From positions 434,001 to 498,000 of the forward strand of contig NZ_CABHWW010000011.1 in NCBI RefSeq assembly GCF_902170305.1: 64,000 bases of DNA. Reading direction: 5' to 3'. Position 1 is the first letter of the stretch, and every line of letters begins with the position of its first letter. Origin of the DNA: Yersinia alsatica. GTDB lineage: Bacteria > Pseudomonadota > Gammaproteobacteria > Enterobacterales > Enterobacteriaceae. A program made the position numbers and the translations under genes. Below the pieces are notes generated by a model, which had not been told where the DNA came from, made no database searches, and was given only the letters and a program-made list of their open reading frames with translations. Below are positions 44,096-57,920 of this stretch, piece by piece.

Positions 44096-44110
44096 TCGGT
44101 TAGATAGCTA

Positions 44111-44142
44111 TTAAAAAAGGCGCTTAAAGCGCCTTATTATTA
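44111..44142. terminator. Bidirectional terminator between the 58-residue protein gene and mgtE
   Basis: The palindrome AAGGCGCTT-A-AAGCGCCTT is preceded by six A residues and followed by TATTATT. On the minus strand it is followed by TTTTTT, so it terminates mgtE well and the small gene moderately. Confidence 0.85.
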
Positions 44143-44148
44143 TCGACA

Positions 44149-45180
44149 TTATGCTAAATCAGTCATCACCAACTGAGCTATTTCAAAGTAAATAATCAGA
44201 CCGGTACCATCAATAAAAGTGGCAATGAAAGGGGCTGAAACCACCGCAGGGTCTATAGATAACCGCTTTAATACCATCGGAATAATGGAAGAGACAATGG
44301 CGCTCCACACCGTGATTGCGACCACCGTCAAGCTCACCACGATAGTCACTTCCATCCCCACGCCCAAGAACCAGGCACGGATCCAGGCCGCCAAACCAAT
44401 GGTCGTTGCCACCATTAGAGAAGTGGAAACTTCTTTGCGCAATACTGCACCGACATTACGTAGACTGACTTCCCCGAGTGCCATAGCCCGCACTAGGGTC
44501 GAGGTAATTTGCGTACCACTGTTACCGCCAGTACCAATTAATAGTGGAATAAAGAATGCCAAGGCGATTGCCGCTTCCAGTTGCTCCTCAAACGCTTTTA
44601 ATACTGTGCCGGTATAAGCTTCCGCGACAAACAGCAGTAATAGCCAAACAACTCGCTTGCGCCATAATGTCACTGGGCTGGTTTGTAAATAAGGCTCGTC
44701 GAGCGGCATACTTGCCCCCTGCCGCTGAGCATCTTCCGTGTTTTCATCTTCAATCAATTCAGCAATATCTTGCGCCCGTAATACTCCCATTAATTTACCG
44801 TGACTTAATACTGGAACGATATCTAAACCACATTTTGCCAATAAGCTTACTGCCTCGTGACGATCTTGATCTGGCGATACAGAGAAATAACTCTGGTTAA
44901 TAATCTGAAAAAGTTTTATATCTTGTTGCTCTTCCGTTAGTAAATTCTTAACCGAGAGTAACCCGAGTAAATGCCGATTATTATTCGTCACCAATAATTG
45001 TGTTGGTATTTCATTATCGGAAATATTTTGCAAGAAATAGGCTTTAGCCTCAGCGACTGACATATCAGCCGATACCGTAATATAGGCATCGCTCATATAA
45101 GCGCCTAAGGTAGATTCTTTATCTTCACCTGGATTGAATGGATGCTGCTTTTGCAATGCTAAGTCGAAATGTGAACTCAT
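44149..45180 (-). CDS. MgtE-type magnesium transporter
   Basis: The 343-residue protein has two CBS domains (about residues 25-145) followed by a five-helix MgtE membrane domain with PLLIGTGGNSGTQ and a late DGTGLIIYF segment. It lacks the N-terminal superhelical domain of full-length MgtE (about 450 residues). MgtE proteins are Mg2+-selective channels gated by Mg2+ binding to the CBS region. AGGG lies 6 nt before the ATG. The M-box riboswitch upstream supports Mg2+ as the substrate and predicts expression under Mg2+ limitation. It is a single-gene unit. Confidence 0.9.
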   Translation of the reverse strand: MSSHFDLALQKQHPFNPGEDKESTLGAYMSDAYITVSADMSVAEAKAYFLQNISDNEIPTQLLVTNNNRHLLGLLSVKNLLTEEQQDIKLFQIINQSYFSVSPDQDRHEAVSLLAKCGLDIVPVLSHGKLMGVLRAQDIAELIEDENTEDAQRQGASMPLDEPYLQTSPVTLWRKRVVWLLLLFVAEAYTGTVLKAFEEQLEAAIALAFFIPLLIGTGGNSGTQITSTLVRAMALGEVSLRNVGAVLRKEVSTSLMVATTIGLAAWIRAWFLGVGMEVTIVVSLTVVAITVWSAIVSSIIPMVLKRLSIDPAVVSAPFIATFIDGTGLIIYFEIAQLVMTDLA

Positions 45181-45261
45181 AAATGACCCTATTACTGTTA
45201 TTATTTAACTAAACAGTCCTCACATAGGGGCGTAACCAGATTAGAGAGTGCTCTATGGCTA

Positions 45262-45421
45262 TCTCCGTGTCTAAGTTTTAGCACTATACAACGTATCTGA
45301 TTTCTCAGAAGTTACTTTGGGTTATACCTTAATCCGATATAGCCTGTCCTAACCTTGGGCGTCTCTGGACGTCGTCAGATCAGTAACCTGTGTTTGTATA
45401 GGAGCCTCGCCTAACGAGATA
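45262..45421 (-). ncRNA. M-box (ykoK leader) magnesium riboswitch
   Basis: Read on the minus strand, the leader begins CTCGTTAGGCGAGGCTCCTA and ends TATAGTGCTAAAACTTAGAC-ACGGAG. These match the well-conserved ends of the Bacillus ykoK leader (GUUAGGUGAGGCUCCU and AUACAGUGCUAAAGCUCUACGA), and the middle contains CCAGAGACGCC and TAAGG as in the M-box core. It lies 82 nt before the transporter ATG. How it switches is not clear: no strong intrinsic terminator follows, so control of translation or of Rho access is possible. This region, with the promoter at 45422-45544, explains the 364-bp gap. Confidence 0.9.
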
Positions 45422-45544
45422 CTGCATTTAAAATGCGAGCACACTATAAACGCGATACTTAAATCAAATCAAAAGAATAACCATTCTTGTTTAAGGTATA
45501 TTTAGGCTTGGGATTTTTATGGCTCGCTATAAAACATAGCTAAT

Positions 45545-46477
45545 TCACACTCGTAAAATAGCCACCGCAATATCTTTCGAGGTTTTTAATGCACGGATTT
45601 CACTAAATAAGTCAGTTGCTTCGGCATATTCTTTACGTAAATAACCTAGCCACTGCTTGATGCGGGCAACATGATATAAACCGGTATCGCCCTGTTTCTC
45701 TAACTGCACATATTTTTGTAGCAGTTTGACCACTTCCGGCCACGGCATCCGTGGTTCGTTATACTTCACGACTCGACTTAGATTCGGCACATTGAGTGCC
45801 CCCCGCCCAAGCATAACTGCATCGCAGCCAGTCACTTTCATGCACTCCTGCGCGCTGCGGTAATCCCAAATCTCACCATTGGCGATCACCGGTATCGTCA
45901 GGCGCTGGCGGATCTCACCGATTGCCTGCCAATTGATGCATTCGGCCTGATAACCCTCTTCTTTAGTGCGGCCATGTACCGCCAGCTCAGTGGCACCGGC
46001 TTGCTGCACCGCATCGGCAATTTCAAATTGCCGATCACCAGAATCCCAACCTAAGCGAATTTTTACTGTGACGGGCAGATGAGCCGGTACCGCTTCGCGC
46101 ATGGCTTTAGCACCTTGATAAATCAATTCAGGATCTTTGAGCAAGGTTGCGCCACCCCCACTGCCGTTAACCAACTTTGACGGACAGCCGCAGTTTAAAT
46201 CTACACCGTAAGATCCAAGCTCAACAGCACGAGCCGCATTTTCTGCCAGCCATTGTGGATACTGGCCTAACAACTGGATACGCACCAGAGTACCAGATGA
46301 CGTCCGGCTCTGTTGGTGAAGCTCCGGGCATAGCCGATAGAAGGATTTTGCTGGCAATAGCTGATCGACCACCCGTAGAAATTCGGTGATGCAAAGATCA
46401 TAATCATTAACTTCACTGAGAAGTTCACGCACCAGTGAGTCTAATACACCTTCCATCGGTGCTAGTATTACCCGCAT
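45545..46477 (-). CDS. dusC: DusC, tRNA-dihydrouridine(16) synthase
   Basis: The 310-residue FMN enzyme matches E. coli DusC throughout: [15 protein letters not shown] at the start, the catalytic Cys in [19 protein letters not shown], and [19 protein letters not shown] and [10 protein letters not shown] around the flavin site. It reduces U16 of tRNA D-loops. The order dld-yohP-pbpG-(mgtE insertion)-dusC partly preserves the E. coli neighbourhood. Confidence 0.95.
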
Positions 46478-56825: not shown

Positions 56826-57806
56826 TCAGCCACCAATAAATGATAAGTTCTGCGTAATGCCGCTATTACCCTGATGCAAGAAATGGGTTTGTTTCTTGGT
56901 TTGCAATGCGCTCTGAATTCGCGCCATCAGCTCATATTGCTGGTCATCACTGCTTAACAGGTCGCGCAATGTAATGCCTTGCTCGCCAAATAGGCATAAA
57001 TGCAGATTTCCCAATGCTGAAACACGCAGACGGTTACAACTGGCGCAGAAGTCTTTCTCATAAGGCATGATCAGCCCCACTTCCCCCAGATAGTCTGGAT
57101 GATGGAATACTTGAGCCGGGCCATCGCTACGTGCGCGCTCTTGCTGTTGCCAACCTTGCTGGAGTAATTGCTGGCGAATGATGTCACCGGAAACATGGTG
57201 TTTACGAAATAGATTGCCACCTTCGCCGGTTTCCATCAGTTCGATAAACCGCAGTTGAATTGGTCTGGATTTTATCCAGTTAAGGAAGGCACTCAGATTG
57301 CGATCATTGACATCCCGCATCAGCACAGCATTGATTTTGACTTTCTCAAAACCAGCATCAAAAGCAGCATCAATACCTTGCATAACCTGATGAAATTTAT
57401 CTTGCCCGGTGATGGCATGAAACTGCCGAGGGTCAAGGCTATCAACACTGACATTAATTGCCGTCAGTCCCGCCTCACGCCATTGGGCCGCATCACGCGC
57501 TAAACGGTAGCCATTAGTGGTCACTGCCAAGGTGCGGATCGCGGGATTTTGCCGGATAGTGGCAATAATATCGGTGAAGTCGCGCCGCATAGAGGGTTCA
57601 CCACCAGTCAGACGGATCTTCTCTGTACCCAACAACGCAAAAGCGCGGCTGACGCGACTTATCTCGTCAAGGCTCAGAAAACTTTTTAATCCGTCCGGGC
57701 GATAGCCATCGGGCAGGCAATAGGTGCAACGAAAATTGCACACATCGGTAATTGATAGGCGTAAATAATAGAATTTGCGCGCAAATGCGTCAGTCAGTTG
57801 TACCAT
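56826..57806 (-). CDS. moaA: MoaA, GTP 3',8-cyclase (radical SAM)
   Basis: The 326-residue enzyme has the radical-SAM motif C23-x3-C27-x2-C30 ([14 protein letters not shown]) and a second C-terminal 4Fe-4S site ([19 protein letters not shown]), and ends FIGG with the Gly-Gly tail needed for activity. It makes 3',8-cyclo-GTP, the first step of molybdenum cofactor synthesis. AAGGTG lies 5 nt before the ATG at 57806; a frame reaching 57851 runs into the riboswitch and is not used. Confidence 0.95.
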
Positions 57807-57811
57807 AACAC

Positions 57812-57920
57812 CTTTCCAAATACGGGAGATGCAGGCATTTCTACCTCGCACCCTGGTGGCTTAAAGCCACGGCCAGAGCATCATATTGTGTTAAACAACG
57901 TAGACACTAAGGCTAGGAGT
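57812..57920 (-). ncRNA. Moco (molybdenum cofactor) riboswitch of moaA
   Basis: On the minus strand the leader runs from CTAGCCTTAG through TGGCCGTGGCTTTAAGCCACCAGGG and AGAAATG to CATCTCCCGTATTTGGAAAG, just before the moaA start. E. coli moaA carries the same elements (CUAGCCUC, UUGGCCGUGAC, GCCACCAGGGCGAAGG, CUCCCGUAUCUGGAAAGGUG). The Shine-Dalgarno AAGGTG is at the very 3' end, consistent with translational control by the cofactor. Confidence 0.92.

Follow-up and report, generated by a model that had tools for sequence, protein, structure and literature searches.

The M-box (ykoK leader, Rfam RF00380) is an already known riboswitch class, and its members studied elsewhere repress at high Mg2+, according to the available portions of PMC4072509 and PMC12810186. 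The Bacillus subtilis M-box shares the aptamer family with the locus described here and likewise stands before an mgtE gene; the Bacillus-type element controls an intrinsic terminator (excerpts of PMC4072509), whereas the leader studied here has no terminator-like site. The Magnesium-II leader (RF01056) of mgtA in Escherichia coli and Salmonella is also a Mg2+-responsive transporter leader but belongs to a different RNA family; it was found in none of 25 Yersinia genomes, with the E. coli control matching. For Mycobacterium tuberculosis, a 2026 study describes a translational M-box, the first of which its authors are aware (PMC12810186, in the part available). It is the only such case that we found in print, in excerpts of mainly open-licence literature, and an earlier description may exist. 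For riboswitches generally, translation attenuation is predicted to be most common outside Firmicutes (PMC2258182, in the sections available), a paper from which the terms ykoK and magnesium are absent. The available parts of PMC9495176, PMC2211319, PMC3766115, PMC7657543, PMC2258182, PMC12810186, PMC4072509, PMC9276622, PMC9943018 and PMC3435302 contain no description of an enterobacterial M-box platform.

The aptamer and its transporter gene

The window is the whole stretch of 64,000 nucleotides of Yersinia alsatica DNA that was analysed. A cmscan search of it returned two matches above the gathering score, an M-box and a molybdenum-cofactor riboswitch. The M-box aptamer lies at 45425-45256 on the minus strand, scores 142.8 bits against a gathering score of 44 (E 2.9e-32) and spans model positions 1-169 of 169 with no truncation; the strands of its helix P1, mapped from the pairs of the model match, are 45421-45416 and 45265-45260 (-). 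A sequence-only reading had proposed an M-box at 45262-45421 of this strand in an enterobacterial host, to be checked with the RF00380 covariance model; the significant full-length match on the minus strand confirms the element, and the host assignment stands. No second M-box was detected in the 5.0-Mb, 40-contig genome at E <= 0.001. The molybdenum-cofactor riboswitch (RF01055, 57931-57793 (-), 111.2 bits, E 6.5e-27), usual for the host group, precedes an ORF at 56826-57851 that presumably resembles moaA.

The next gene on the aptamer's strand is mgtE (44149-45180 (-), 343 aa), whose start codon at 45180 lies 82 nt from the end point of the earlier reading, as that reading had counted. The product is an MgtE transporter, the target that had been suggested, as judged by its MgtE channel domain (PF01769, E 1.1e-30) together with CBS domains (PF00571). 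The MgtE_N domain (PF03448) was not detected in the 343-aa protein at E <= 0.001, so that it does not qualify as the long form, and TIGR00400 aligns to it from model position 130 (231.9 bits, cut-off 232.75), which indicates that the front part of the family is lacking. Among named proteins, the nearest is from Yersinia frederiksenii ATCC 33641 (98%), which places the source of the window in Yersinia, near that species. The same genome encodes a second MgtE of 504 aa (L150, 899-2413 (-)); one genome thus holds two forms, a short one with an M-box and without MgtE_N, and a longer one with MgtE_N and without an M-box. Given a covariance score above the curated cut-off and a position as same-strand leader of a Mg2+ transporter gene, the M-box aptamer and its mgtE target are certain for practical purposes.

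Upstream of the unit lies dusC (45545-46477), and downstream a D-alanyl-D-alanine endopeptidase gene that we take to be pbpG. A promoter-like site, TTGATT-18-TATAGT (45443-45472 (-)), stands 17 nt before the aptamer; the scan returned four such sites against 3.5 expected, that is, at chance level. The TATAGT is unchanged in all 11 aligned Yersinia leaders, and this identity makes it probable that the M-box-mgtE unit has its own promoter. Directly 5' of the aptamer is a palindrome, GCATTTTAAATGC (45426-45440 (-)), which is identical in 10 of the 11 leaders and differs by one base in L117. Terminator-like sites numbered three in 44100-45600, against 1.3 expected: two at 44117-44135 (-) after mgtE, where an 8-bp stem is followed by TTTTAA, and one at 44299-44311 inside the gene. 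None lies between the aptamer (45256) and the gene (45180), in agreement with the earlier remark that no strong terminator follows the aptamer, and the leader is therefore not of the Bacillus type, in which an intrinsic terminator occupies this interval.

Distribution, gain and loss

M-boxes are fairly common in the GTDB family of the window, being present in 80 of 392 sampled genomes and 34 of 154 genera, and the presence of one here is hence unsurprising. In a class-wide sample, matches were found in 2 of 369 genomes, namely that of the window and one with a match below the gathering score. E. coli, among the 14 control genomes of the family-wide RF00380 scan, gave no M-box match, and blastn of window 44149-45440 against 20,395 E. 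coli records gave no match either. A DNA profile of the aptamer (E <= 0.01, not cmscan) was applied to 80 of the 86 relatives found: it matched upstream of the gene at 50 of 50 loci from named species (L031-L080, enterobacterial plus one Iodobacter MAG) and at 5 of 30 more distant loci (L081-L110), which this profile fits poorly. The Providencia stuartii locus (L077) has an aptamer match, and the relative of the window's MgtE was matched there in two pieces. The first MgtE to be cloned, by Townsend in 1995, is said to be the P. stuartii protein, reportedly of the short form.

Of 25 Yersinia genomes, 14 have both the M-box and the short MgtE, and the remaining 11 have neither; a second, longer MgtE-like gene (26-28% identity) is present in all 25. 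The short proteins of the 14 genomes are 67-100% identical to that of the window. Eleven of the 14 carry the unit between dusC and pbpG; the remaining three, of the Y. ruckeri type (67% identity), have it no closer than 34 kb to that site. The dusC-pbpG spacer was compared in 10 of the 11 genomes that lack the unit, G392 being excluded because its two genes are on different contigs. In nine of these empty spacers, neither the aptamer nor mgtE was matched (blastn at E <= 1e-3, tblastn at E <= 1). The tenth (L159) retains 78 nt with 78% identity to mgtE (window 44852-44775, E 2e-11), together with two short tblastn pieces, and this remnant indicates at least one loss of the M-box-mgtE unit. In 6 of the 10 empty sites (L151-L156) there is another ORF, 210-226 aa long, on the strand opposite dusC.

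Other arrangements were also seen among the relatives. In two genomes (G017 and G163, loci L129 and L134), two M-boxes lie ~1.4 kb apart, with MgtE matches flanking the fetched one on both sides, and these are apparently tandem M-box-mgtE units. Four well-scoring M-boxes (L008, L029, L123, L124) have no MgtE match within the fetched flank; in these cases the riboswitch seems to have outlived a lost or broken gene. At L005, an M-box of 148.2 bits without an MgtE match, the longest downstream frame is a 369-aa ORF, 227 nt on.

The expression platform and its conservation

The sequence-only reading had suspected an expression platform unusual for this class, and the suspicion can now be made specific: the leader carries a conserved hairpin, H2, that would sequester the Shine-Dalgarno sequence. 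On the minus strand of the window, the P1 3' strand would be drawn into a candidate anti-P1 hairpin, H1 (45234-45277), whose arms are 45277-45258 and 45251-45234. H1 is followed by the anti-Shine-Dalgarno CCCUAU (45224-45229), which is the 5' strand of H2, by the inner stem of H2, CUGUU (45216-45212) with AACAG (45199-45195), and by the Shine-Dalgarno strand AUAGGG (45187-45192), the 3' strand of H2, 7 nt before the AUG. As in leaders of the translational type, an upstream anti-Shine-Dalgarno pairs with the Shine-Dalgarno (CCCUAU/AUAGGG), and the pairing is conserved in relatives. A candidate short upstream ORF, AUGUGA after the anti-Shine-Dalgarno, was rejected, since inspection by eye found the AUG missing in relatives such as L015 and L058.

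How far is this arrangement kept beyond the window? Aptamer and MgtE lay in range of each other at 115 loci; L014 and L084 (no start assigned) and L079, L083, L086 and L090 (distant) were left out, which gave 109 loci with 86 distinct leaders. The distance rule kept out L092, L129 and L134, the last two of which have an MgtE-like ORF 51 nt downstream, and the five loci with an M-box and no MgtE match (L005, L008, L029, L123, L124) entered no count. L131 and L133 lacked the anchor motif; the 73 distinct segments comprised 59 in the long alignment and 14 compact ones, and 12 of the latter form the compact alignment (L076 and L147 left out).

The aligned leaders have a common order of elements: P1 3' strand, H1, C-rich anti-Shine-Dalgarno, Shine-Dalgarno strand and start codon, with an additional small inner stem between anti-Shine-Dalgarno and Shine-Dalgarno strand in the long group. 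H1 would share part of the P1 3' strand and hence compete with the aptamer helix P1. H2 was found across Yersinia, Serratia, Providencia, Proteus, Photorhabdus and further relatives with a few compensatory variants, those that keep the helix being CCUCG/CGAGG (L007), CCCC/GGGG (L002, L121) and CCCA/UGGG (L072).

RNAalifold recovered H1 and H2 unaided in the 12 compact leaders; in the 59 long leaders it recovered only parts of both (nine pairs, one with both-sided change, covariation term -0.03). Counted on the 59 long leaders, pairing in the full structure reached 93.5% of cells, compared with 36-45% for slid versions, a share that leans towards the structure because the latter was drawn by hand with the alignment in view. 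Both-sided changes amounted to 10 cells against a shuffled mean of 1.7 and against 12, 15 and 10 in the slid controls, and the inner stem of H2 was paired in 96.6% of cells with zero both-sided changes. The 12 compact leaders (99.0% of cells paired, zero both-sided changes) thus add conservation, not covariation.

In a further test, the Shine-Dalgarno was held fixed and the platform was shuffled, with 75 distinct platforms grouped into 19 clusters. For 9 of the 19, H2-type pairing was better than in the shuffles at p<0.05 (median over all clusters 0.058, Fisher 5e-9), and for 4 of the 19 this held for anti-P1 (H1) pairing (Fisher 7.5e-5); these combined p-values overstate, since the clusters are related to each other. 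The window's own cluster gave p = 0.068 for H2 and p = 0.218 for H1. In 19 of the 75 platforms, a segment other than the C-rich anti-Shine-Dalgarno is the better partner of the Shine-Dalgarno by contiguous-helix score, and six of these are Providencia-like, with an extra base before UAGGG. The aptamer 5' core strand GGCGAGG was tried as a Shine-Dalgarno-freeing strand and rejected (Fisher 0.54, with a single cluster of the 19 at p<0.05). With its well-conserved Shine-Dalgarno hairpin, the platform is a probable translational variant of the M-box.

Possible modes of control and known counterparts

The conserved sequestering hairpin points to translational control, and we infer an OFF switch. 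On balance we favour the reading that the M-box represses the MgtE-type Mg2+ transporter at high cell Mg2+ by acting on translation. With Mg2+ bound, helix P1 would be closed, H2 would form and ribosomes would be unable to start; without Mg2+, the freed P1 3' strand would rearrange into H1 or onto the anti-Shine-Dalgarno, which would favour an open ribosome-binding site. The translational OFF switch is perhaps coupled to Rho, which may also terminate the untranslated leader early.

Is the P1 3' strand suited to such a role? It resembles a Shine-Dalgarno sequence in the compact group and, more weakly, in the Serratia-like group. Against the anti-Shine-Dalgarno, its best energy averages -9.7 kcal/mol in the compact leaders, where 3% of leader windows do better, -5.3 kcal/mol in the GAUAGG (Serratia-like) group (5% better) and a weak -3.6 kcal/mol in the Yersinia group (21% better). 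Judged by these complementarities, the strand is a plausible competitor for the anti-Shine-Dalgarno in the compact and Serratia-like groups.

Folding was modelled in two states. Across the 86 distinct leaders, pairing between Shine-Dalgarno and platform averaged 0.90 with the aptamer pairs enforced and 0.57 with the core pairs forbidden, and on aptamer opening it dropped by more than 0.3 in 39 of 86 leaders. In a control, 19 real leaders went from 0.92 to 0.53 and 228 shuffled leaders from 0.79 to 0.38, and the unpaired Shine-Dalgarno share of the real leaders rose only from 0.067 to 0.102. The same difference in the shuffled leaders means that two-state folding gives no support for a switch.

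The absence of an intrinsic terminator-like site from the leader also fits a Rho-based transcription switch, in which closing of P1 would free the pyrimidine-rich stretch of H1 3' arm and anti-Shine-Dalgarno for Rho to load on, with H2 secondary; with P1 open, H1 would hide the pyrimidine-rich stretch. Rho-dependent termination occurs at the M. tuberculosis M-box, whose anti-Shine-Dalgarno is regarded by the authors of that study as a possible Rho site (PMC12810186, in the part available). However, the stretch from aptamer to start in the window's leader is not C-rich overall (C 15 and G 16 of 79), and the kept pairing with the Shine-Dalgarno would be left unexplained, so that we regard this alternative as rather improbable.

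We give still less credence to a real M-box whose H2 is a constant, non-switching damper of translation, control being exerted by another mechanism such as mRNA decay. Such a damper would agree with the nearly full formation of H2 in several compact leaders (L130, L137), whichever of the two states is modelled, and with a between-state difference equal to that of shuffles, but the aptamer, its spacing and H2 are conserved jointly over many genera, and H1 would link P1 to the platform (Fisher 7.5e-5). A relic, or a switch of reversed logic (an ON switch, or one for another metal), is highly improbable: in a single modelled leader (L006), Shine-Dalgarno pairing fell when the aptamer was closed, but the window's copy scores 142.8 bits across the entire RF00380 model, all 14 Yersinia copies score 142.8-146.2 bits, each beside an open short MgtE frame, none of the 86 leaders gained more than 0.3 in Shine-Dalgarno pairing on opening (trimmed fold), and the M-boxes tested elsewhere repress with Mg2+ (excerpts of PMC4072509).

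Tentatively, and with considerable doubt, we suggest a family-wide translational M-box with long and compact platforms, in which the P1 3' strand would mimic the Shine-Dalgarno and compete with it for the anti-Shine-Dalgarno, the target would be MgtE without MgtE_N, and Mg2+ feedback would depend more on the RNA than it does for ordinary MgtE. If confirmed, translational control in these leaders would make a second translational M-box, far more widespread than the first, in genera that have tractable laboratory strains and offer natural variants of the sequestering helix for testing, and would show a Mg2+ switch working without the intrinsic terminator used by most described M-boxes. If the platform reading fails, what remains is an ordinary M-box, of a riboswitch class that is well known.

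Proteobacterial M-boxes before mgtE, as in the window, are given for Vibrio cholerae and Chromobacterium violaceum in the available part of PMC9276622, a likeness by listing, not by sequence. The comparison with the M. tuberculosis pe20 M-box, drawn from the available part of PMC12810186, concerns the platform itself: an anti-Shine-Dalgarno is present there as in the window, and the purine stretch at the 3' end of the aptamer is the proposed competitor, a part that the P1 3' strand may play here. The target in M. tuberculosis is a small upstream ORF before pe20, whereas in the window H2 stands directly before mgtE.
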